The translations under genes were made by a program, and so were the position numbers. Below, one piece after another: positions 3,438 to 64,000 of a stretch of DNA of 64,000 nt. The stretch is from Ctena decussata (Eukaryota; Mollusca; Bivalvia; Lucinida; Lucinidae): NCBI GenBank assembly GCA_963989385.1, contig OZ022503.1, positions 87,269,138-87,333,137 of the forward strand, written 5' to 3'. The notes below the pieces were generated by a model. That model made no database searches and was not told the DNA's origin. It was given only the letters and a program-made list of their open reading frames with translations. Numbering within the stretch: position 1 is the first letter of the stretch; every line of letters begins with the position of its first letter.

Positions 3438-3712
3438 TTGGTTGGTTGGTTGATTTGATGCTTAACGTCCACGGTAAACAACTAAGGTCATGTCGGGACG
3501 GTCAGTTAACCTAACCACACTATTCCTGGGCAGGCTTAGACCTTCTTAGCGGTTAACCAGTACTAAGTGCACATACTTTCGCCAGTAACTGACAAATGCC
3601 CTTCTTGAATCAGCGGAAGGAGAAACGAAAGTATGTGGCCAGACCTGGATTCGAACCCAGGACCTCTGACTTACGAGTCAGGTGCCCTACCGATTGCGCT
3701 ACCCCGCCCGGC
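3438..3712 (-). mobile_element. tRNA-derived SINE with 11-bp target-site duplication
   Basis: On the minus strand the element starts at 3712 with a tRNA-like head (about 3712-3637) that has box A and box B-like sequences; 'ggttcgaatcc' is the T-arm signature. The body continues to a (TTGG)n-type tail at 3438. A perfect 11-bp direct repeat, agatttctcgg, lies at 3427-3437 and 3713-3723, which is the hallmark of LINE-mediated retroposition. The tRNA anticodon arm does not fold into a clean 7-nt loop, so this is a SINE head and not a functional tRNA gene. A second copy lies at 54705-54842. Confidence 0.88.
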
Positions 3713-11238: not shown

Positions 11239-11949
11239 ATGAGCAGTGAGAACTCTCAGGTTAGCCACACCCCAGAACAAGGTGAAGGTAGCTACAACAC
11301 TTTACAAAGCAGGGAACCAGCAGGGGTGAATCAAAACATGACATCTGCAAGCAATGTTGGTACATCGCAGGCGGCAGAAATGAATATGCAACATGCAGCA
11401 GCGTCAACTTTAATGCAATTGCATGGTACCACGCATAATGACCAGCCCCAGGGTGATGTAACTAATGTAGGGTCCAAAAATGGCTCAGGTGAAGGCCACA
11501 CTAGTTGCCATGATGAATCAGTATATATACCTAATAGGGGTATGAGAAATTTTTCAGAAGATGATGAAAATTCAACTCGGAGTACTGGGTGGCAAAATCC
11601 CATGCTTTATTCACAAACAAACATGCAAAACGCAATATCGGGGCTTAGCAATGCAATTGGTTGTTTGCAACAGCAACAAGTTGATATACATAGGAGGCAA
11701 GACAATATAACTGGTACACTTGAACAGGTCTTAACGGCCCTGCAAGGTATAAGGGACAGAAACAGCCCTGCAACAATCAACCCAAGTAGTAGTAGTATGG
11801 TAAATGGGGGACCTGAACCATCGTTAGGGGCTAATGCCCATAGTTCCCACTTAAACGCAGATGAAACCTCTGTAGGAAACAACTTTATTTACAACAGCGA
11901 TACAAATAGAGGGTTAGGAGAAACTCGGGCATTTTCGGACGGTTTAAGC
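11239..11949 (+). pseudogene. gag: Gypsy gag, N-terminal part (interrupted)
   Basis: The structural Gag starts at the first ATG in frame (MSSENSQ, 11239); the frame is open from the end of the LTR. The visible stretch is low-complexity and rich in Asn, Gln, Ser and Gly. It has a Q-rich heptad-like segment (LQQQQVDIHRRQDNITGTLEQVL) near residues 140-165 that could form a short coiled coil. It ends with 'LGETRAFSDG', a motif that repeats after the insertion (LGENRTFSDS). A PLE fragment then enters the frame, and the remaining codons to the stop at 12066 belong to the PLE. Normally this would be one Gag with the part from 12824 to 14333; the insertion should abolish a full-length product. Confidence 0.85.
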
Positions 11950-12823
11950 CTATCGGAACCAGAATTTTATGGTGACTTAGTATACAAATTCAAAAAGATT
12001 AAGGGTAGCACTGGTTTTTCTGATCAATTCCGAAAAATAATAATACGTCACAAACGTATTGGCTAACGTATTGGCTATAATTTAAATGTTATGCGACAGT
12101 CTGCATGCTTAGTGATTAACCCAATCACGGTTGATAGCTTTGCTGCACTCTTTAATTGCACACCGGGGGATCGGTCGTCAGACTCTATGATGGCCCCGAC
12201 CTAAAGCTATATATTTTAGTTGGTTGGGACCGGAGCCTTTTTGTCTGTTGCTTGGTCCACCGGGGCTCAACTGGTGACCTTCTTTTGCTTCAGATTTCCA
12301 GTGGGGTTGTTTGGCAGGACAGGGATCTCCACCTGTCAGACGGCCCGTTGTATCTGTTGAGACCTCGTCTTTGCTTCTTCATGGTGTTGAAATTTGATTT
12401 ATGTGTTTACCGTGATGATTCATTGACGAGTTAGAGGGTTATCATGCGAACCGAACAACCAACTAAATGTTTTGTACCACTTCAGAAACTGAGGGTGAGG
12501 TTGGGCCTGTAAAATCGATTTAAGCCCCCCAGTAATTCATTACTGACCGTTCCAAGGCGGTAGTTCTGTTGTGGTTCTTTGTTGCCTGTTTTTGGTGTCA
12601 GAGTTTCTGTGATGTTTTACCTTATGTATGTTATTATTATTTTTGGTTCGGTTTGGGTTGCTGAGTGGCCACCTTTTGGGAACAAGCTGCTCACTCGGTT
12701 GGCCATATGTTCTCTGTATCTTGATTATTTGTAATCTTAGTTGTTTCCAACTATGGTTTGAGGGCTGGATTTGGATTTTGATTGTTTCAGTTCCTGGTCT
12801 TTGCATACTTTTTACTTTCAGTT
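11950..12823 (+). mobile_element. PLE fragment nested in gag
   Basis: Sense copy of the PLE from the last about 60 codons of the RT ORF to the 3' terminus (…gcatactttttacttt). Sequence from 'ggaaccagaattttatgg' onward matches 37845-38690 closely. A short frame break ('cgtattggctaacgtattggc') is a 10-11-bp duplication near 12055-12075. It contains the SECIS-like hairpin at 12187-12235. Both flanks are gag, so this is a nested insertion that postdates the Gypsy master sequence. Confidence 0.95.
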
Positions 12824-25160: not shown

Positions 25161-25262
25161 AGTACCATTTATAACGCCTTTGGTATGGCGCGGCTGGGAT
25201 CCGAACACACGACCGCCCGTTCCCGAAGCGGATGCTCTTCCACTGAGCTATCGGGGCCGGTA
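25161..25262 (-). repeat. tRNA-like SINE head
   Basis: On the minus strand 'gatagctcagtggaagagc' is a strong tRNA box A, and 'gtgtgttcggatccc' is a box B/T-arm. The acceptor ends do not pair cleanly and no CCA or intact flanks are seen, so a SINE or tRNA relic is more likely than a tRNA gene. Confidence 0.6.
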
Positions 25263-29329: not shown

Positions 29330-29785
29330 GCTACATTTGAGGAAATGCTCCAAAAGCTCCGACCGAGACTCGAATCAAGGGCCTCTCGTTCATCGTGCGA
29401 GCACTTTGTCAACTTAGCTACCAAACCACATAGTCGACCTTTGATATCCACCTTGCTTACAAACATTTGTTCCCGAATCTGCTAGGAATCATGCAGGAAC
29501 CAACAAAATATACTCATATTGATACTTGCGACCCAAGCCGTGGACCCTCACATTTGCCATCAAATATCACAGGGGAGGCCAATCGTGGCCCGACCGAGGC
29601 TGGCAACTAGCACCCCTCGCGAGACAACTGAGCTGTTGATACAAAAAGTCGATCTTTGACACTAAAACGTCCCAAGGGATGAAGTCGTGGCTCGACCAGG
29701 GTTCGAAACAACGGCCGCCTTCTAACCGTCAGACAACTAAGCTATTGGACCATAGAGTCGACTTTCCAAACCATCGCCCTCTGCT
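29330..29785 (-). repeat. Three degenerate tRNA-like modules in tandem
   Basis: On the minus strand three modules, roughly 170-190 bp apart, carry box B-like sequences ('gattcgagtctcggtcgg', 'gccagcctcggtcggg', 'ggttcgaaccctgg' in degraded form). Their common flanks are of the type 'tcgacttt' and 'gtcgacc'. The likely origin is SINE copies or a tandem SINE; they are not functional tRNA genes. Confidence 0.5.
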
Positions 29786-29789
29786 TCTG

Positions 29790-30460
29790 CAGTGATTTGA
29801 ACATTTAGTTAGCTGGTTGTTCCGCGTTAAGGTTTCTTAACCCGTCAATGAATCATCACAGGAAACCAACAAATCAACCTACGATACATTACACATGAAG
29901 ACCGATAGAACCAGCGTATTGCGACACGTAAAGACACCGAAAGATCCCTCTGTTGTGTTCATATCTTATCCCTGCTGTAAGCCATGAATGTGTCTTTATT
30001 GGAAATAAAATATGTTTACACTAACCATCCTTGTGGTGTCAAACAACAACTTTGAAGTATCGGAGCAAAACAAAAGCTCCAGTTGAACCCCGACTGACCT
30101 AGCAACAGACAAGACAAGCTTCGACCCCAACAATCTAAAATAAATAGCATTATGTCGGGTCCATCATTAAGTCTGATGCTCAACCAACGGGCAAGCAATT
30201 AAAGAGGGAAGCAAAGGTATTAACCATAACTGGGTTAAGCACTTAACATGCAGACTGCAGCATTACATTTATGTTAAATCTAATACGTTTGTAACATACG
30301 ATAATTTTCTGAACTGATCAAACCCATCAGTCCTACTGATGATTTTTTTTAATATATAGACTTAATCACCTTAAAATTCTGGTACCAACAGGCCCTGTTG
30401 CAACAAGTTTTTATCCGACTTTAAGTTCAGAAACCAAATCATAGTGTCGGAGATAGAAAT
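29790..30460 (-). pseudogene. Old PLE copy: RT C terminus and 3' region
   Basis: An antisense, strongly diverged copy aligning to the RT C-terminal coding region (30190-30455) and the start of the 3' tail (29790-30190). Conserved blocks include 'gactgatgggttt…aattttaaggtgattaagt', 'aatgctgcagtctgcatg' and 'aattgcttgcc'. In this copy the frame meets TGA just after the conserved N-C-x-P. The SECIS-like hairpin then follows (30127-30160 on the plus strand). The copy is useful as an outgroup for the young copies. Confidence 0.75.
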
Positions 30461-30539
30461 TTGAAAGTTTTTTTCCAAGTTTATGATACTGATAACCCTA
30501 TTGAAAAAGTTTAGCAGTTAAAATTTTATTACGGGCATG

Positions 30540-31790
30540 GAATTCAGTCACATAACTAGCATTTTTGTATATTTGACACGCCGTAAAAAGGTCATGATCA
30601 ATCCAAGGTCATTATTTTAACAATGTCGGCAGTACTCGAGTACCCGATGCTACATACAAGTTTCAATGCCATCGGTTAATGGGTCTTGGAGAAGAAAAAA
30701 AAATTAAAGGTTTATACCATATATTGGCATGGCAGCCATGTTGTGGTCATGTGTTTTGGACCATTTGAACAAATTTTTGTTCCCTCAGCCCCTACATGCT
30801 CTATATGATATTTGGTTACAATTTGCCAATTGGCTTTTGAGATTTTTGAAATTTTCTAAAGTAAGAGCTTATAGGATCAAAGGTCAAAACCTTGACCTTG
30901 ACTGCTTGTACTCATATATCTTCATTTACTCAAAAAGACGACTGTTTATACCAATTTTAAGGCCAAAAGCTTCAAAACTTTCAAGGAATTCTTATGTTCT
31001 AGCATTTTCTAATATTTGACCGTGCCATAAAAAGGTCAAGGTCAACAAAGGTCATCATAGAACAATCTTGGTAGTACTGTAGTACCCGCTGCTACATACC
31101 AGGTTTCAATGCGATCGGTCAATTAGTTTTGGAGAAGAAGATTTTTGAAGGTTTCTACCATATATGGGCGTGGCGGCCATGTTGGTTATGTGACCTGGAC
31201 CGTTTGAACAAATTTTGTTCCCTTAATCCCTGGAGGCTCTATATGAAATTTGGTTACAATGGGATTAGTGGCTTTTGAGATGTTTGAATTTTTCGAAATA
31301 TGAGAAACCAGGATCAGAAGTCAAAGAATGAATTTGACCTCTTGTACTCATAAATCTTTATGTACTCATTAAGATGGCTGTATATACCAATGTTTTTGGC
31401 AATATCTTCAACATTTACGACGAAATCTTGTGTTCTAGCATTTTCCCATATCGAAGCACCAGAAAGAAAATTTGACCTTACCTGTAAAAAAGGTCAAGGC
31501 TAACCCAAGGTCATAATTTGAACAATCTCGGTAGCACTCGCGTTTCAAGGCCATCGGCCCATTGGTTCTGGAGATGATTTTATAGGTTTTTACCATATAT
31601 GTGCATGGTGGTCATGTTGGACATCTGACCAGGACCGTTTGAAAAACATTTCGTTCCCATGAGCCCTGAAGGCTATATATGAAATTTGGTTACAATCTCT
31701 CCAGCAGTTTCAGAGGAGAAGTCGTTTGAAACAAGGACGGACCGACGACGGAGCCGTCTCATTATATTAGCTCCCTTGGTGAGCTAAAAA
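30540..31790. repeat. Long tandem-repeat element, about 440 bp x 2.7
   Basis: Units start near 30591, 31033 and 31490 ('aaggtcat…aacaatctcggtagtactcgagtacccg'). Each contains 'tttaccatatatgggcatggcggccatgttgg' in variant form, 'ctctatatgaaatttggttacaat' and 'tatgttctagcattttc'. It ends with 'ggacggaccgacgacgg' and a short hairpin tagctc-ccttggt-gagcta (31768-31786). Same family as the 5087-7548 element. No coding content. Confidence 0.75.
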
Positions 31791-32017
31791 TCAGAATTTG
31801 ACAAAGCAGTGAGGCAAGAGGTAAATAATTTGGAAAGTTCAGTAGCTGTTTTTTTTTTTTTTTTTTTGCTGTTTTTTAATGAAGCCTAGGTAACCAACAC
31901 ATCGTATACACTTTGTCTTGGCGTTCCTTAACTATTAGAGGTAAATGACTGCAATGATCGATACCTACAGAATGCCCTTCTGCAGATGTCTGTTTTGTAG
32001 GCCCTAGTACCGCTAAG
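31791..32017. other. Spacer with poly-T run
   Basis: A T-run of about 19 nt lies near 31850-31868; nothing else is seen. Confidence 0.4.
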
Positions 32018-32275
32018 TTGGTTGGTTGGTTGCTTGCTTGCTTTGGGTTTAACGGCTCTTTGAGACAATATTTTAGTCTATATCGGGACGTCTCTCAAAT
32101 AGTATGAGAACGAAGAGAGATATGAAGGACGAGAGAAAAAAAATGTCCAAACTAACCCTTCAGCACCTACTGCAAGCACAGTATGACCTTGCTCTACTAT
32201 TACCCAAATCAGTAGACCGCCCCAGCACTGGAAGGTATACCCAGCACCATTGACCCACCAACCACCCTAGTACCG
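32018..32275 (+). repeat. Dispersed SINE-like repeat R2, copy
   Basis: (TTGG)n/(TTGC)n start, 'tttgggtttaacggctctttgagac', 'tctatatcgggacgtctc', purine block, 'cacctactgcaagcacag', ending near 'caccattgaccc'. Confidence 0.8.
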
Positions 32276-32636
32276 CTAAGCTCCTAACTGAGTCTGTTTA
32301 TGTAGTATTGCCGTCAATTAACAATAACGTTGTTTACGGCATTATTTGCTCGAATCAAAACATACTTTCTAGGAAATTCTTGGATACCCTGCTGCTAACT
32401 GTCGAAAAGTAGATTTAACAGAGTCTCAAATCATTTGAGACTGTCTCAAATGAAGTGAATGTAGCAATGAATGTAGCTTTGTCAGAGATGTATTATGCAG
32501 TTAACTGTAAGCTAGTGATGTATTTTATTCATGCTTGCTGAGTATCCACATTATTTTCTTCTAGTAAAGAATTTGTTCATTCACAGGACCTCGGTCTTAT
32601 ACTGATACATGTGTAACAACATATTGATTGTATAAA

Positions 32637-33186
32637 AGTAAAAAGTATGCAAAGACCAGGAACTGAAACAATCAAAATCCAAATCCAGCCCTCAAACCAT
32701 AGTTGGAAACAACTAAGATTACAAATAATCAAGATACAGAGAACATATGGCCAACCGAGTGAGCAGCTTGTTCCCGAAAGGTGGCCACTCAGCAACCCAA
32801 ACCGAACCAAACATAATAATAACATACATAAGGTAAAACATCACAGAAACTCTGACACCAAAAACAGGCAACAAAGAACCACAACAGAACTACCGCCTTG
32901 GAACGGTCAGTAATGAATTACTGGGGGGCTTAAATCGATTTTACAGGCCCAACCTCACCCTCAGTTTCTGAAGTGGTACGAAACATTTAGTTGGTTGTTC
33001 GGTTCGCATGATAACCCTCTAACTCGTCAATGAATCATCACGGTAAACACATAAATCAAATTTCAACACCATGAAGAAGCAAAGACGAGGACTCAACAGA
33101 TACAACGGGCCGTCTGACAGGTGGATATCCCTGTCCTGCCAAACAACCCCACTGGAAATCTGAAGCAAAAGAAGGTCACCAGTAAA
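32637..33186 (-). mobile_element. PLE 3' tail, antisense
   Basis: About 550 bp of the young PLE tail with its terminus at 32637 (gtaaaaagtatgc) and a 5' truncation at about 33186. It covers the non-coding tail only. The 6-G run at about 32922 is intact. Confidence 0.92.
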
Positions 33187-34353
33187 CAGTTAGGAGATAG
33201 GTAAAGCAGGATGTATCACAAGTATTGCCCTTTCTTATGTCGCCTTACGGTAAAGCTAATGTCACTTAATTTGGAACTTTCAAGACTTTCAAATGATATA
33301 AGCCTCTGTTATCTAGGTTTAGGGGCTTATGTTTTTGTGAATAGATTTTAAAAGGTTTATCTTCTATTTTGAAAATGCTTTCTTTCCATGCCTTAAGGAA
33401 TAAAGTTCAACATACTATCCTTTACACCATCGATCCCCAAAATCATTTTATACAGCTACTGTTTCTTCCTTACAATCTTGAAAATCTGTATTTAAGACCA
33501 TTGGAAACTATGTAACATTTTTTTAATCTAAAATGATTTTCGAATTTCCAATTATAATATGACCAGCTGCAGGACAAATGATTTAGAGTCTTTACAGTCT
33601 CATGAGTCAGGGGTGTTTGCATTGAAATTAAATACATCTATAGTGTTTCTTATGGGCTTGTTATATTTATAACGCATTAATGGTTGTTCAGCATTTTAGA
33701 AATAAGTAGGTATGAATGGAATTCCGGATCTACGTAAGTCAAAAAAATCAATTTCTTTATTTATAAAAGGAGCTTCTGTGAAGTGTCTTTTGTAATTTGC
33801 TTCAGATTCGATTAATGAAGGAAGAACATGTTGGTTATAACATCAAAGCGAAAAAGCCTAGCATCATACAATTGATGATTTCTATCGTAGAAAATGTTTT
33901 CAACAAATCTTAGGTGAAATAATTATTCTTTTTTCGTGGGTTATTTCCCTTTTGCCTTAATCTATGAGATGTAGATTTACGTTTTTGAAATTCCACAAGG
34001 AAAAACACAACAGAATCAGGCTACTTGAAACTATTACCTTCATGGTAAATATAATCATTGAATCCCAGTGGAAAAGAGTTTGCGATAATTCTATCAATTC
34101 AGGCATGTCCTTTTCTGGTTTTGAATCGTTACAATAGGTTATTCTAATGTACTTACATATGTAACGCGACGTCTGATTGGATAACGTCAAAAATTTGCGA
34201 CAATAAATCCTGCGATACACTGTCGGAAACCCGACGTCATTATGTAACGGCACTTCTCATTGGTTGACGTCCGGTTTTAAGTCGCTGAAAGCGTTTGTTT
34301 TGGGTGCAAAGTAGCACACTTTTCAGGTGAAAATGTGAAAAGTGCATTTGAAT
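33187..34353. other. No recognisable feature
   Basis: AT-rich with no coding similarity. The open frame at 33957-34253 has no recognisable motif. Confidence 0.4.
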
Positions 34354-34491
34354 GGGGATAACTGTATTTAAATTGTCATTTGGGGAGATAAACCGTCGGT
34401 TTTATGGTCGCAAATTGCATAAAACGAAATTTCCGACCATAAAACCGACGATTTACCTCCCCAAATGACAATTTTAAGTACAGTTATCCCC
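34354..34491. repeat. Palindromic foldback element
   Basis: The arms are 'ggggataactgta…attgtcatttgggga' and its reverse complement, continuing into 'accgtcggttttatggtcg', with a loop of about 25 nt. Total 138 bp. Confidence 0.85.
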
Positions 34492-34611
34492 TTAATTTCT
34501 CCACTGGTTGCACTGAACTTGTTGCACTGAACCTGAAGTGGTTGCACTAAACCTGTCAGGAAGTAGACACATAATATTTCAATAACATATAAAGGCGTTG
34601 CCACTAGATAT

Positions 34612-34886
34612 ACTGACCGTTCCAAGGCGGTAGTTCTGTTGTGGTTCTCTGTTGCCTGTTTTTGGTGTCAGAGTTTCTGTGATGTTTTACCTTATGTATG
34701 TTCTTATTATTTTTGGTTCGGTTTGGGTTGCTGAGTGGCCACCTTTTGGGAACAAGCTGCTCACTCGGTTGGCCATATGTTCTCTGTATCTTGATTATTT
34801 GTAATCTTAGTTGTTTCCAACTATGGTTTGAGGGCTGGATTTGGATTTTGATTGTTTCAGTTCCTGGTCTTTGCATACTTTTTACT
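34612..34886 (+). mobile_element. PLE 3' tail upstream of full copy
   Basis: Sense-oriented tail from 'actgaccgttccaagg' to '…ctttttact'. It lies less than 200 bp upstream of the coding PLE copy in the same orientation, which is compatible with a pseudo-LTR (partial head-to-tail tandem) arrangement typical of PLEs. Confidence 0.8.
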
Positions 34887-35060
34887 CTTATTATCAGAGT
34901 TCTTGTGGTTGTGCTGTGTGGCGGCCCCAAAAAGTCTCCCCGCACATCCATTTAATGCTCTTATTCTTCCAATCCTCAGGGGTTGTTTGCAATCATTTTC
35001 CATTATTCATGTCCCTTAATACCATTCCATTTCGATACTGAATTGGAGGTCATTAATTGA
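34887..35060 (+). other. Interval between PLE tail and PLE coding region
   Basis: Possible PLE 5' leader. A block of about 60 nt (34906-34975; 'ccaaaaagtctcc', 'catttaatg') has a diverged inverted match at about 47675-47765. Confidence 0.35.
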
Positions 35061-36217
35061 CCGATATTCGCACCCCGTTGTATAACTAATTCTTACGTTT
35101 CTGTCTGTGGACTTGTATTAGACATAGATTTGAGATGTGGGTCTTTGTTATACCATTCCTTTTCAGAGGGAGTTTGCTTTAACAAAATTATGTCTGTTTT
35201 ATTTAATAACCGGTGTGAATGTCGCGCTTTTCTTGACGGTATCAACCCACTATACACAAATATGACTATTACAAACAGATTAAGAATTACAATATCTCCC
35301 CTAAGGTTACATGCTGCGTCTTCTGTACGGATTCCCAATTCTACTCAAAGCTTTCGAGCTTTATTACCTACAGTTAGAATGAGACCTCTAAATTTGTTTT
35401 CGGCATCATCTGTCGATCTACATGGAGCATCAAATGCTAACACTTTTCGCAACAATCTACGAGTAAGGTTGTCCCCAATTAAATCACCAGTTTTACGTAA
35501 ATACCCTAATCCGTTCAAAAGACCTAGTATGTATCCTAGCATTTCTAAGTGCAATGCCAAGAGTTGCAACTGTTGTGAACATTTATGTACCGACTCTACT
35601 ATCACTTCATCTGTGAATGGTAGGACTTTTTCAGTAATTAACGATTCTGATTTGGATTGAAAATCAGAGAATGTGATATATGTTTTAACTTGAAACACAC
35701 AGACCTGTAATATGCAATATGTTGGACAAACTTGTCGTAAGCTGAAGACTAGATTTGGTGAGCACTATCGTAAGATTTTAAAGGCTAAAAAGATAGATAC
35801 TTTTCTATACCAACATTTTTAAGCGTACTGGTCATTCTCCTGATAATGTTTCAGTACAAATATCTGAGAAGTTATCATATGATCATAATTTTTCTGCTCG
35901 ATTCAATAACATAAAAAGATTCGAAACTGAATTAAAATGGATAAAATTATTGCAATCAGCTTCTCCACTTGGTTTTAACGATAACATCTACCATGAGGGA
36001 AATATCTCTAAAATGCCAGATTTTGATGTGTTTTCTCTTTTAGAAATTCGAAAACGTAAATCCAGATCTCATGGTATAAGACAAAAAGGAAATGATAAAC
36101 GTAAAAGATGTGCTGCCAAAAAATCTAACACTTCTCTTAATGATTTATCAACAAAATTATTGGAACATGGCCGACATACTATGCTTTCAATTCTTAGATC
36201 ATTTGAAGATCATCCCG
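35061..36217 (+). pseudogene. Naiad-type PLE: N-terminal Cys-rich and GIY-YIG endonuclease
   Basis: First half of the retroelement polyprotein. It encodes a GIY-YIG homing-type endonuclease that nicks target DNA for reverse transcription. The frame is open from 35061, and the first plausible ATG is at 35190. A Cys cluster (C-x4-C-x-C-C-x3-C, 35550-35589 region) precedes the nuclease. The nuclease has 'VIY' at 35673-35681, 'YVG' at 35718-35726, Arg at 35751, His at 35763 and a downstream 'TELKWIKLL…P' typical of the GIY-YIG catalytic Glu region. Two in-frame TGA codons occur (35658-35660 and 35691-35693). The second lies where the family has the first Cys of its CCHH zinc motif, with Cys 35706 as its partner. 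Single-base frame changes near 35816 (T-run) and 36216 (G-run) break the frame. The TGAs may encode selenocysteine; the frame changes suggest that this copy is dead. Confidence 0.82.
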
Positions 36218-38077
36218 GATTCTAGAATTCGTAACATTGTTTCTAAGGGTCCTAAGTATAGATTCCCTTCCCATATCGATTTCAACAGATGTAGGGAAGA
36301 AATTGCATCTGCATTAAATGATTTTGGTAATCGTTGGTGTAAACGAGAGGGTGTTGAGAGTAACGCTTTAAAGAAATGGAAACTAAGTATCTTTAATATT
36401 GTGGATAAACGTATAAAGTTTTATTCACACAATACTAATCTTTTACCTCCTAAGCCTAAATCTTCCTTTAGATATTTGAAGCAGGGTATCCAGGATTTTC
36501 ATAGGAAGTATGTTTTGGTTCCTGGTGACAAGGCCGCAAACAACATTGTTGTTGTTTGTCGGATGCACTATATTAACACTTTGAAGCAGGAACTTAACGG
36601 CACCACGGCTTACGAAGAGACTTTTACAGATGAGAAGACTGTCATCAATAGCCACTCAAATAATTTGCCTTTAAAATTTGCTGTAAACGTTAAGGAACGC
36701 CAAGACAGACTTCCTACGATGTATTGGTTACCTAAGCTTCACAAAAAACCGTATAAAGCTAGATTCATTGCCAACTCTAGCTCTTGTACTACTACAGAAT
36801 TATCTAAATTATTAACTTCTTGCCTCACTGCTGTGAAATCTCGTGTCATTTGGTACTATGAGACAGTGTATGAGAGGTCAGGGAAAAATATGTTTTGGTC
36901 TATAAAAAATTCTGGTGAGGTGCTTAATAAACTGAAGTCAAGAGGGTTCCGTGCGACTAGTTTGTCCACTTATGATTTTTCTACTCTTTATACCACATTA
37001 CCCCATAATTTAATAAAGGAAAAACTTGTTGATTTGATTGAGAGGGCCTTCAAAAAGTTCTCCAAAAATGAAGATACCCTTTATATTGCCTGTAACGATA
37101 AGAAAGCGTTTTTCACTTCTACTGACCGTAAAATATATAGAGGATATAGTCTTTGGTCATGTCAGAATGTATGTGACGCCTTATCATATCTCTTAGATAA
37201 TATTTACATCAGATTTGGTAATAAGTTATACAGACAAATTGTTGGTATTCCGATGGGTACAAATTGTGCTCCTCTTGTGGCCGATTTGTTTTTATTTTGT
37301 TATGAAAGAGATTTCATGACTTCTCTTTCTGTTGATAATCAAGCTGATATCATTGAGGCATTTAACTCAACCTCTAGATATTTAGACGATTTTCTGAATA
37401 TTGATAATCCTTATTTTGAAAGCATGGTTAACCAAATTTACCCACCTGAACTTAAATTGAATAAAGCTAATACTTCAGATACCGAGGCCCCCTTTTTGGA
37501 TTTACATCTATCTATTTCTAACGGTTTTGTATCTTCTAAAATTTATGATAAACGTGATGACTTTGACTTTGATATATTTAATTTTCCATTTTTGGATGGT
37601 GACGTTCCACGTCGTCCCTCTTATGGAGTGTATATTTCTCAACTTATAAGATTTGCTAGAGTGTGTAGTCATGTAGATGACTTTAATGCTCGTAATAAAT
37701 GTTTAACTGCTAAACTTCTTCAACAGGGCTATCGGTATCATAAGCTTAGAAAGGCTTTTTCTAAATTCTATCGCAGACACCATGAATTGGTTTCAAAATT
37801 TGATGTCGGATTAAAATTTCTTTTACACAAAGGCCTATTGGAACCAGAATTTTATGGTGACTTAGTATACAAATTCAAAAAGATTAAGGGTAGGACTGAT
37901 TTTTCTGATCAATTCCGAAAAATAATAATACGTCACAAACGTATTGGCTATAATTTAAATGTTATGCGACAGTCTGCATGCTTAGTGATTAACCCAATCA
38001 CGGTTGATAACTTTGCTGCACTCTTTAATTGCACACCGGGGGATCGGTCGTCAGACTCTATGATGGCCCCGACCTAA
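36218..38077 (+). CDS. Naiad-type PLE reverse transcriptase domain
   Basis: Long frame with PLE/telomerase-related RT signatures. In order: 'VVVCRMHYINTL', 'LPTMYWLPKLHKKPYKARFIANSS', motif A 'YDFSTLYTTLPHNLIKE', motif B 'GIPMGTNCAPLVADLFLF' and motif C 'YLDD' at 37379-37390. 'FLDLHLSISNGFVSSKIYDKRDDF' and the C-terminal 'GYRYHKLRKAFSKFYRRHHEL' (thumb region) follow. The frame is unbroken from about 36218, after a frame change from the endonuclease, to the stop at 38075-38077. The stop lies inside a conserved hairpin; in an older copy the stop is slightly upstream. RT C-terminal to GIY-YIG identifies the permuted N-terminal-EN PLE group (Naiad) and not canonical Penelope. Extent and frame count are read directly; activity is doubtful because the upstream part is broken. 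Confidence 0.92.
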   Translation, partial: DSRIRNIVSKGPKYRFPSHIDFNRCREEIASALNDFGNRWCKREGVESNALKKWKLSIFNIVDKRIKFYSHNTNLLPPKPKSSFRYLKQGIQDFHRKYVLVPGDKAANNIVVVCRMHYINTLKQELNGTTAYEETFTDEKTVINSHSNNLPLKFAVNVKERQDRLPTMYWLPKLHKKPYKARFIANSSSCTTTELSKLLTSCLTAVKSRVIWYYETVYERSGKNMFWSIKNSGEVLNKLKSRGFRATSLSTYDFSTLYTTLPHNLIKEKLVDLIERAFKKFSKNEDTLYIACNDKKAFFTSTDRKIYRGYSLWSCQNVCDALSYLLDNIYIRFGNKLYRQIVGIPMGTNCAPLVADLFLFCYERDFMTSLSVDNQADIIEAFNSTSRYLDDFLNIDNPYFESMVNQIYPPELKLNKANTSDTEAPFLDLHLSISNGFVSSKIYDKRDDFDFDIFNFPFLDGDVPRRPSYGVYISQLIRFARVCSHVDDFNARNKCLTAKLLQQGYRYHKLRKAFSKFYRRHHELVSKFDVGLKFLLHKGLLEPEFYGDLVYKFKKIKGRTDFSDQFRKIIIRHKRIGYNLNVMRQSACLVINPITVDNFAALFNCTPGDRSSDSMMAPT

Positions 38078-38108
38078 AGCTATATATTTTAGTTGGCTGG
38101 GACCGGAG
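38060..38108 (+). promoter_or_regulatory. SECIS-like hairpin in PLE 3' region
   Basis: ATGA at 38060-38063, then a helix of about 10 bp (38065-38074 with 38095-38104, two mismatches). The 5' side of the apical loop has AAA 12 nt after ATGA, and the 3' side of the helix is followed by gGAg, giving potential tandem G.A/A.G pairs. The same structure is at 12187-12235 and in antisense copies at 63620-63680 and about 30120-30165. The sequence pattern matches a eukaryotic SECIS; this is a reading by eye, not a computed fold. Confidence 0.6.
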
Positions 38109-38690
38109 CCTTTTTGTCTGTTGCTTGGTCCACCGGGGCTCAACTGGTGACCTTCTGTTGCTTCAGATTTCCAGTGGGGTCGTTTGGCAGGACAGGGATC
38201 TCCACCTGTCAGACGGCCCGTTGTATCTGTTGAGTCCTCGTCTGTGCTTCTTCATGGTGTTGAAATTTGATTTATGTGTTTACCGTGATGATTCATTGAC
38301 GAGTTAGAGGGTTATCATGCGAACCGAACAACCAACTAAATGTTTTGTACCACTTCAGAAACTGAGGGTGAGGTTGGGCCTGTAAAATCGATTTAAGCCC
38401 CCCAGTAATTCATTACTGACCGTTCCAAGGCGGTAGTTCTGTTGTGGTTCTCTGTTGCCTGTTTTTGGTGTCAGAGTTTCTGTGATGTTTTACCTTATGT
38501 ATGTTCTTATTATTTTTGGTTCGGTTTGGGTTGCTGAGTGGCCACCTTTTGGGAACAAGCTGCTCACTCGGTTGGCCATATGTTCTCTGTATCTTGATTA
38601 TTTGTAATCTTAGTTGTTTCCAACTATGGTTTGAGGGCTGGATTTGGATTTTGATTGTTTCAGTTCCTGGTCTTTGCATACTTTTTACTT
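38078..38690 (+). mobile_element. PLE 3' tail of full copy
   Basis: Non-coding tail shared by all young copies, ending '…gcatactttttactttt'. It includes the 6-G/C run 'aagccccccag' at about 38396. It is followed by two diverged direct repeats of 'ggtatctga' type in the flank. Confidence 0.9.
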
Positions 38691-39019
38691 TTGGTATCTG
38701 ATACTGAGAGATGCATTATTTCCTATATACAGATTTGGTATCTGAGACCGGCAGGTGAACTATTTCCTGTTGAGGAATGGAATAAGTGACTTATTATCGT
38801 TGTTTTTATTTCTTTATCTGGTGACCACTCAAACATATAAAATAAGCTGATACTGTTTTGTTGTCAATATTATACACCAATGTATTGGATTGGATCCTGA
38901 ATTCTAACATTTCATAATGATTAGTGGCTTTGCATTTGAGACAGGCCTAAGCATTCTATTATGTATGAGACTCGAATAAAGATTATATATATGACTTGTA
39001 TTTTAGTTTTTATAACTTT
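38691..39019. other. No recognisable feature
   Basis: AT-rich flank with a short direct repeat (38690-38780). Confidence 0.4.
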
Positions 39020-39093: not shown

Positions 39094-39140
39094 ATCCGTC
39101 ATAAAAACTAAAACGGATAAGGTCATAAAAACTAGATATC

Positions 39141-39581
39141 AACATATCTCTTGGATCAAAGGTGAAACTTGTGTGCTCCCTTGTCATTTCCATATTTCTG
39201 TATGCCTGTGAAACTTGGACCTTGACGGCAGAGTTAGAGAAAAGAACGCAGACCTTTGAGATGAGATGCTACCGAAGGTTACTGAACATTTCGTACAAGG
39301 ACCATATCACCAATGAGAAGGTTCGCAGGAAGATCCAAGCAGCCATTGGAGAATATGATGAACTCCTGACGCTGGTCAAGAACCGGAAACTAAGGTGGTT
39401 TGGCCACATCTCAAGGTCTTCTGGTTTAGCAAAGACAATTCTTCAGGGCACAGTGAAAGGAAAAAGAAGAGGTAGACAGAAAAAGAGGTGAGAAGACATT
39501 ATCAAGGAGTGGACAGGAATGGATTTTGCCAGCTCAGCTAGGGCAGCTGAAGACAGGACAAAGTGGAAAGGGATTGTTTAG
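39141..39581 (+). pseudogene. LINE (non-LTR retrotransposon) ORF2 C-terminal fragment
   Basis: The protein 'KLVCSLVISIFLYACETWTL…RCYRRLLNISYKDHITNEKVRRKI…RKLRWFGHISR' is the conserved C-terminal region of many invertebrate non-LTR reverse transcriptases (after the RT core). The conserved 'RWEDxIKEW' reads R-stop-E-D-I-I-K-E-W because of TGA at 39489-39491. The frame then continues to 39581. The upstream RT core and endonuclease are missing (5' truncation). Confidence 0.88.
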
Positions 39582-48382: not shown

Positions 48383-48583
48383 AATGGATGGATGACTGGT
48401 TATTTTACGTCCTTTTCAACAGTATTTCAGCTATATGAGGCCGATGGGCGGATGATAATGAAAGGCTGTGTGCAATGGAACCCCGTTTACGGTAGGAAAG
48501 ATTCTCGCCTCATGTAGGATTCGAACCTAGTCCGCTAGATCAGTAGGCCAGCACTTAACCCACTAAGCTACCGGGGCTCCTCT
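48383..48583 (-). repeat. tRNA-derived SINE
   Basis: On the minus strand the tRNA-like head (48583-48510) has 'ggtagcttagtgggtta' (box A) and 'aggttcgaatcctac' (box B). The body runs to 48383 and ends in a (GGAT)n-like tail. It is a different SINE family from 3438-3712. No clean target duplication was found. Confidence 0.7.
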
Positions 48584-51440: not shown

Positions 51441-51876
51441 CACAGGGTATAATCGATTCCTCTAATTTTCGCTTCCTGCAGAGACTGTACATCATATTTG
51501 GCTTCCGCCGAGACTGTCCGCGAGTTCTTGCTTCCTGCCGAGACTTCTGTACATGATAAATGGCTTCCTGCAGAGACTGTCCGCGTGATTCTGCTTCCTG
51601 TCGAGCCTCACGGCAGGAAGCAGAGTCACGCGGACAGTCTCGGCAGGAAGCCAATTATCATGTACACAAGTCTCTGCAGGAAGCAAGAACTCGCGGACAG
51701 TCTCGGCGGACTTCACATCATATTTGGCTTCTGCCGAGACTGTCCGCGATCTCTTGCTTCCTGCAGAGACTTCTGTCCTCGAAAATTGGCTTCCTACCGA
51801 GACTGTCCACATGACTCTGCTTCCTGCCGAGATCCTCGGCAGGAAGCAGAATCACTCGGACAGTCTCTGCAGGAAG
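51441..51876. repeat. Palindromic repeat-array foldback, second locus (compound)
   Basis: The left end is the same as at 43385 (cacagggtataatcgattcc). Two consecutive foldback units, with centres near 51605 and 51833, are made of the same gcttcctgc-gagactgtcc motif. The right terminus is missing; it ends abruptly at 'tctctgcaggaag'. Confidence 0.85.
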
Positions 51877-63032: not shown

Positions 63033-63036
63033 ATGA

Positions 63037-64000
63037 AAGTAAAAAGTATGCAAAGACCAGGAACTGAAACAATCAAAATCCAAATCCAGCCCTCAAACCA
63101 TAGTTGGAAACAACTAAGATTACAAATAATCAAGATACAGAGAACATATGGCCAACCGAGTGAGCAGCTTGTTCCCAAAAGGTGGCCACTCAGCAACCCA
63201 AACCGAACCAAAAATAATAAGAACATAAGGTAAAACATCACAGAAACTCTGACACCAAAAACAGGAAACAGAGAACCACAACAGAACTACCGCCTTGGAA
63301 CGGTCAGTAATGAATTACTGGGGGGGGGGGGGGGCTTAAATCGATTTTACAGGCCCAACCTCACCCTCAGTTTCTGAAGTGGTACAAAACATTTAGTCGG
63401 TTGTTCGGTTCGCATGATTACCCTCTAACTCGTCAATGAATCATCACGGTAAACACATAAATCAAATTTCAACACCATGAAGAAGCAAAGACGTGGACTC
63501 AACAGATAAAACGGGCCGTCTGACAGGTGGAGATCCCTGGCCTGCCAAACAACCCCACTGGAAATCTGAAGCAAAAGAAGGTCACCAGTTGAGCCCCGGT
63601 GGACCAAGCAACAGACAAAAAGGCTCCGGTCCAAACCAATTAAAATATATAGCTTTAGGTCGGGGCCATCATAGAGTCTGACGCCCGGTGTGCAATTAAA
63701 GAGTGCAGCAAAGTTATCAACCGTGATTGGGTTAATCACTAAGCATGCAGACTGTCGCATAACATTTAAATTATAGCCAATACGTCTGTGACGTATTATT
63801 ATTTTTCGGAATTGATCAGAAAAATCAGTCCTACCCTTAATCTTTTTGAATTTGTATACTAAGTCACCATAAAATTCTGGTTCCGATAGGCCTTGGTGTA
63901 AAAGAAATTTTAATCCGACATCAGATTTTGAAACCAATTCATGGTGTCTGCGATAGAATTTAGAAAAAGCCTTTCTAAGCTTATGATACCGATAGCCCTG
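63037..64000 (-). pseudogene. PLE copy, antisense, running off the window
   Basis: The 3' terminus is at 63037 (gtaaaaagtatgc), then the full tail, then the RT C terminus from about 63690 to the window end ('GLSEPEFYGDLVYKFKKIKGRTDFSDQFRKIIIRH'). An 8-nt deletion near 63683 relative to other copies fuses the RT frame into the tail, giving a longer frame down to 63425. The tail G-run is expanded to 15 G (63320-63334). The SECIS-like hairpin is present with a few changes (63620-63680). The upstream part lies beyond the window. Confidence 0.92.

Follow-up and report, generated by a model that had tools for sequence, protein, structure and literature searches.

In-frame TGA codons and a candidate SECIS element in a decayed Penelope-like retrotransposon of Ctena decussata

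Introduction

Are two TGA codons that interrupt the endonuclease frame of a retrotransposon mere scars of a dead copy, or do they encode selenocysteine (Sec, U) in the family to which this copy belongs? The question arises from a 64,000-nt stretch of Ctena decussata DNA (the window), in which a sequence-only reading had recognized a candidate selenocysteine-encoding Penelope-like element while keeping simple decay as the alternative. In clams and spiders, Craig et al. (2021, Mol Biol Evol 38:5005) reportedly described Penelope-like elements, the Naiads, that encode several selenocysteines. Retroelements that need Sec couple the activity of jumping genes to the selenium metabolism of their host, and Sec in place of a zinc-ligand cysteine in a nuclease would be chemically unusual. 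Gene callers also split such elements at each UGA, and here the relatives of the endonuclease are seen only as fragments.

We conclude, with a probability of roughly 0.88, that the locus is a decayed Naiad-order Penelope-like retrotransposon, composed of an endonuclease (EN), a CxC linker and a reverse transcriptase (RT), whose working members would insert Sec at UGA codons through a single 3' SECIS element. The selenocysteine proposal is upheld by a first stop that recurs in homologues, by cysteine or tryptophan at the second, and by SECIS matches, and it is well supported at the level of the family. The main copy itself is inactive. As a copy it is new, but its kind has already been reported.

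Results and Discussion

Layout of the element and its surroundings

The main element lies on the forward strand between two 288-nt direct repeats that are 99% identical (34611-34898 and 38414-38701), which we treat as pseudo-LTRs. Upstream, on the reverse strand, a truncated 3' fragment of the same family (32632-33183) forms a 550-nt inverted repeat, 98% identical, and begins after the stretch that holds the SECIS match. Direct repeats accompanied by an inverted truncated fragment are the arrangement expected of Penelope-like elements, and this pattern of pseudo-LTRs with inverted/tandem insertion is what we find. Between the repeats, an EN frame of 210 codons when TGA is read as Sec (35190-35819) precedes an intact RT frame of 665 codons (36080-38077) containing the motifs DFSTLYTTLP, GIPMGTNCAP and YLDD. 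By these motifs we take the frame to be an RT, and by motifs and layout we presume the whole to be a Penelope element. The RT frame has 1874 protein homologues at E up to 0.001; in Pfam it matched no family, RT domain included, and its predicted structure (pLDDT 39.0) is too poor for use. Two of the best 120 of the 1874 homologues carry names from bins of 'Candidatus Thiodiazotropha', the symbionts of lucinid clams, which makes bivalve host DNA the likely origin.

The Naiads of clams and spiders reportedly combine an N-terminal GIY-YIG EN, a CxC linker, a C-terminal RT, pseudo-LTRs and several Sec codons, an architecture that the present family would share; our main copy lacks the CxC segment. 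The canonical EN+ Penelope elements (Penelope/Poseidon, Neptune), in which Sec is not known to occur, share the GIY-YIG endonuclease, the RT and the pseudo-LTRs. They differ in the position of the EN, which excerpts of PMC11167929 place at the C terminus and which is N-terminal here. The hammerhead ribozyme family was absent from Rfam matches at E up to 10, both in the main element and in the whole window, as expected of a Naiad-type element.

A related element, present as an older and interrupted copy, occupies 29710-34128 on the reverse strand, where blastn pieces are 64-75% identical and tblastn pieces cover the end of the EN, the linker and the RT. Inside it, a unit of about 436 bp is repeated in tandem, in three diverged copies (30744-31696), and an imperfect 50-nt palindrome, 92% complementary, is found between it and the main element (34367-34477). 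Downstream of the main element, an open frame on the forward strand (39129-39491; RKLRWFGHISRSSGLAKTILQGTVKGKRRGRQ) resembles the C terminus of an RT from a non-LTR retrotransposon.

Two TGA codons in one endonuclease frame, and the damage beyond them

From the ATG at 35190 to the TAA at 35820, the EN frame contains two TGA codons and neither TAA nor TAG, in line with the sequence-only reading, in which both stops were TGA; 45 of the best 120 of 387 EN homologues start instead at the point of an alternative ATG (35262). The two candidate Sec codons are residue 157 (35658-35660) and residue 168 (35691-35693). Read through, the peptide is DLD-U-KSENVIYVLT-U-NTQTCNMQYVGQT...RFGEH...YQH. After the second U it continues NTQT-C-NMQYVGQTC..RFGEHY..YQHF, so that four residues, and not the five noted earlier, separate this U from the next cysteine. 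We presume that U168, C173, H191 and H209 are the ligands of the EN CCHH zinc motif. That the second TGA falls on the first cysteine of this motif agrees with the cysteine found at residue 168 in some relatives (P0153, P0165, P0173). The assignment of a GIY-YIG module is borne out in part: Pfam detects it above its cut-off in the relatives P0165 (25.1 bits) and P0173 (24.2 bits) and below it in P0128 and P0153, but it finds no match in the window's own EN pieces, in the read-through frame P0121 or in P0142. The predicted EN structure (pLDDT 46.1) is too poor to check the zinc ligands.

Beyond these codons the copy is damaged, although not quite as first described. Of two supposed single-base frame changes, the one near 35800 is indeed a one-base shift: the C-terminal part of the EN and the start of the linker continue in another frame, open for 142 codons (35797-36225), and homology to P0142 resumes from 35818. 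The break near 36200 is instead the join of an internal deletion. At the junction (36195-36209), residues 64 and 206 of P0058 and residues 94 and 243 of P0117 become neighbours, and residues 65-205 of the former and 95-242 of the latter, some 141-148 codons, have no counterpart in the main copy. The lost segment holds the linker CxC motif, and comparison with these relatives indicates that the deletion probably took out a third recoding site. Since it has suffered one frame change and the loss of about 140 codons, the main copy is dead and cannot make the enzyme.

The stop at residue 157 recurs among homologues

Damage of this kind invites the view that both TGA codons are nonsense mutations that arose at random in a dead element. 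Two TGA codons by chance would not be rare in themselves, given that 34 of 88 single changes in the EN frame lead to TGA. What speaks against simple decay is the behavior of the same codons elsewhere. We searched with TGA translated as U and examined the best 120 of 387 EN homologues found at E up to 10. These were compared as proteins, not as DNA, so that we infer the kind of stop in other copies and see TGA itself only in the window. Residue 157 was informative in 105 of them, with a stop in 80 (78 exact and two deduced after a mismatch at the end), tryptophan in 21, arginine in two, leucine in two and cysteine in none; the 15 uninformative rows comprise one gap and 14 others. The 78 exact cases end, without any tail, one codon before the first TGA, whereas every other end point inside the EN frame is shared by at most three homologues, and 14 run past residue 210. 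The stop at the first TGA codon thus recurs across the relatives, and decay by itself is unlikely to account for the TGA codons of this copy.

The phylogenetic spread of the stop points in the same direction. A tree of 115 rows, built on residues 25-156 after removal of rows that lack more than 30 columns, leaves many forks unresolved. Its supported clades, four in number, hold 3, 13, 44 and 54 rows, P0223 standing apart, and stop or tryptophan is found at residue 157 in each. The stop at 156/157 is spread across three of the four clades, while the clade of three reads tryptophan. With the first stop at the same codon across divergent clades and other ends scattered, we regard random nonsense mutation as a very improbable origin of the two codons.

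The second TGA codon tells a complementary story. Among the same best 120 of 387, residue 168 was informative in 24 rows, with 19 tryptophans, four cysteines and one stop (96 uninformative), and residue 173 reads cysteine in 18, tryptophan in three, tyrosine in one and leucine in one (97 uninformative). Cysteine at 168 occurs in P0153, P0165, P0173 and P0176, though the alignment of the last, gapped at 157, is doubtful. One homologue, P0206, in which 157 is arginine, terminates immediately before 168. Cysteine is thus seen in relatives at residue 168, but none of these homologues shows it at residue 157, a position that we assume to be normally cysteine. Judged from these alignments, the first TGA appears to be as family-wide as the second.

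The tryptophans need an explanation of their own, and the straightforward one would be that TGG is ancestral and that TGA arose from it repeatedly by single transitions. The frequency of tryptophan, at 157 in 21 of 105 and at 168 in 19 of 24 informative homologues of the best 120, is what such a history would leave. Yet at 168/173, as at the first cysteine of the CxC linker motif discussed below, tryptophan alternates with a zinc-ligand cysteine: C168 is paired with W173 in P0153 and P0165, and 17 rows show the reverse pairing of W168 and C173, including one that has arginine at 157. A tryptophan replacement is not expected at such positions. Moreover, the tryptophan of the ELKWIKLL motif is intact in the window and in the relatives compared, and an ancestral TGG would leave the SECIS unexplained. 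Within the clade of 44, rows with tryptophan and rows with a stop are mixed and sometimes neighbours (P0128/P0241, P0142/P0228), and tryptophan at 157 is accompanied by tryptophan at 168 in 18 of 21 rows. This mixing and this pairing are better explained by gene calls that take TGA as Trp than by paired TGG codons. Most simply, then, tryptophan at these sites would be TGA translated under a TGA=Trp code by gene callers, and we find repeated loss of an ancestral TGG scarcely credible. We also looked for full-length proteins (530-1683 aa) that contain this EN, scoring residues 112-210; none of eight candidates matched at E up to 10.

A third candidate site in the linker

The CxC linker motif that the main copy has lost can be followed in its relatives. 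Its first position is tryptophan in P0011, P0013, P0014 and P0058 and cysteine in P0117 (SCDC). In the older copy of the window, tblastn alignment to relatives places an in-frame TGA at precisely this position (33600-33602, reverse strand; NTPDS-TGA-DCKDS), so that the motif is deleted in the main copy, TGA-x-C in the older one and W-x-C in four relatives. The window thereby holds TGA at all three sites, and at the second and third the relatives have cysteine or tryptophan.

Where the older copy aligns to P0058 and P0142, its pieces contain seven further in-frame stops, all of them TAA or TAG, which at first offers a clean contrast with the TGA of the linker. We dropped this contrast, as the 24 in-frame stops in all 28 aligned pieces comprise nine TAA, eight TGA (that of the linker included) and seven TAG; ten queries were given, eight of them produced pieces, and six of the 24 stops occur only in pieces aligned to P0011. 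Decay of the older copy has therefore also yielded TGA elsewhere, a point in favor of nonsense mutation, and the weight of the third site lies in its exact place and in the tryptophan and cysteine of relatives, not in the type of stop. Taken alone, the TGA of the older copy's linker could be a product of chance. That residue 168 and the first CxC position are both cysteine in some relatives still runs against decay.

A SECIS match at the same place in three young copies

If Sec is inserted in this family, a SECIS element would be expected in the 3' region. We find a match to the Rfam family SECIS_1, a eukaryotic SECIS model, at 38052-38120 (28.3 bits). It overlaps the last part of the RT frame, and its AUGA core starts at 38060; its E value is 0.014 in a search of 4.3 kb against 4227 families and 0.22 over the whole window. 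Both other young copies that hold this stretch match at the same position: one on the forward strand (3' copy 11948-12818, match 12179-12247) with 34.6 bits and E 0.0039, and one on the reverse strand (3' copy 63036-64000, match 63612-63680) with 22.2 bits and E 9.9, which by score alone is at chance level. All three scores are below the gathering score of 35, and with E values up to 10 allowed, SECIS_1 matches the window nowhere beyond this position in the three young copies. Decay offers no reason why three young copies should share the position of a SECIS match.

The structure that minimum-energy folding gives for the strand differs from that of a SECIS, as commonly happens with SECIS elements. 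In the corresponding region of the older copy, every pair of helix I is kept and helix II shows one two-sided change (C-G to A-U), the core G is lost, and Rfam finds no match. This region is 80% conserved against 75% and 70% in its flanks, a difference that is not significant (p = 0.37), and covariation over four sequences is weak, being equalled in 121 of 500 shuffles. About 2,400 nt separate the UGA codons from the SECIS in the main copy; PMC3737529, on the distance between UGA and SECIS, cites 51 nt as the reported minimum for insertion of Sec.

The SECIS match also bears on the possibility that UGA is read by a near-cognate tRNA, without Sec, producing a small amount of EN-RT fusion. Such readthrough equally predicts a conserved stop inside a conserved domain. 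It would, however, require up to three serial readthrough events, it does not call for cysteine in relatives at two of the three sites, and it gives no role to the SECIS match. The codons that follow the two TGAs are AAA and AAC, and not the CUA of a strong readthrough context. We therefore hold Sec-free readthrough to be highly unlikely.

Among the other Rfam matches of the window are tRNA-like sequences on the reverse strand at 3636-3708, 25186-25258 and 48506-48577, the last two also found by ARAGORN, which are possibly SINE heads. A match to mir-4650 on the forward strand (51568-51646, 43.3 bits) is well under its gathering score.

The terminal stop lies inside the candidate SECIS

One feature is less expected: the final stop of the frame lies within the SECIS. 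The AUGA core starts at 38060, and the terminal TAA (38075-38077) coincides with UAAA in the alignment to the model. The core would thus be encoded by the last codons, SMM.PT, while the unpaired adenosines would come from the UAA stop. Of the best 120 of 1874 RT homologues looked at, 74 have a readable tail; 65 of these end at the same codon, and 58 share a tail of MM (ATGATG), two residues and threonine, alanine or serine. P0117, which has the lowest identity among the best 120 and cysteine in its CxC motif, ends before the MM tail.

The nearest parallel that we encountered is the glutathione peroxidase of fowlpox virus, whose SECIS is located in the coding sequence; excerpts of PMC8310308 state this and place all cellular counterparts in 3' UTRs. 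Excerpts of PMC7409322 agree on the fowlpox case and add a predicted coding-region SECIS in a ciliate, as well as others in an intron and a 5' UTR, in genes that lack Sec. The viral and the present SECIS are both of eukaryotic type and at least partly translated, but the former belongs to a host enzyme captured by a virus and is within the coding sequence, whereas ours straddles the stop. A SECIS straddling the stop of a retroelement was not found in the literature searched, which did not cover Craig et al. (2021), and we make no claim of priority.

The proposed selenocysteine mechanism would work as follows. Working members would produce a single EN-linker-RT protein with Sec inserted at UGA codons, namely at residue 157 before the GIY motif, at residue 168 as the first cysteine of CCHH, and at the first cysteine of CxC, with one SECIS, at the frame's 3' end, directing all three. 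Ribosomes that fail at the first UGA would release a short cysteine-rich N-terminal protein, and the amount of full enzyme would be limited by the supply of selenium and by the efficiency of recoding. More tentatively, and on balance we doubt it, a frame that ends in its own SECIS might have its terminating ribosomes melt the recoding signal and, together with Sec swapping between two zinc-ligand positions, constitute a self-limiting, selenium-dependent switch of retrotransposition. If general, the layout provides a natural test of SECIS function under oncoming ribosomes.

Searches for other copies

Sequence searches in the PDB gave nothing useful, tblastn of P0142 against phages found no match, and a degenerate EN pattern found nothing in viral contigs; in the window the same pattern recovers only the EN of the main element, with 0 expected. 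A pattern for the SECIS tail hit 22 viral stretches that have no RT homology, and we discarded them as chance. Sequence and alignment searches with the RT in viral and genome contigs, and with an EN alignment in viral contigs, returned a single weak RT fragment, L001, with neither an EN match nor a SECIS match. The bin that contains this Penelope-like RT fragment (L001:4786-5170) carries the name of a Bathymodiolus symbiont, so the fragment is probably DNA of the host that entered a bacterial genome record.
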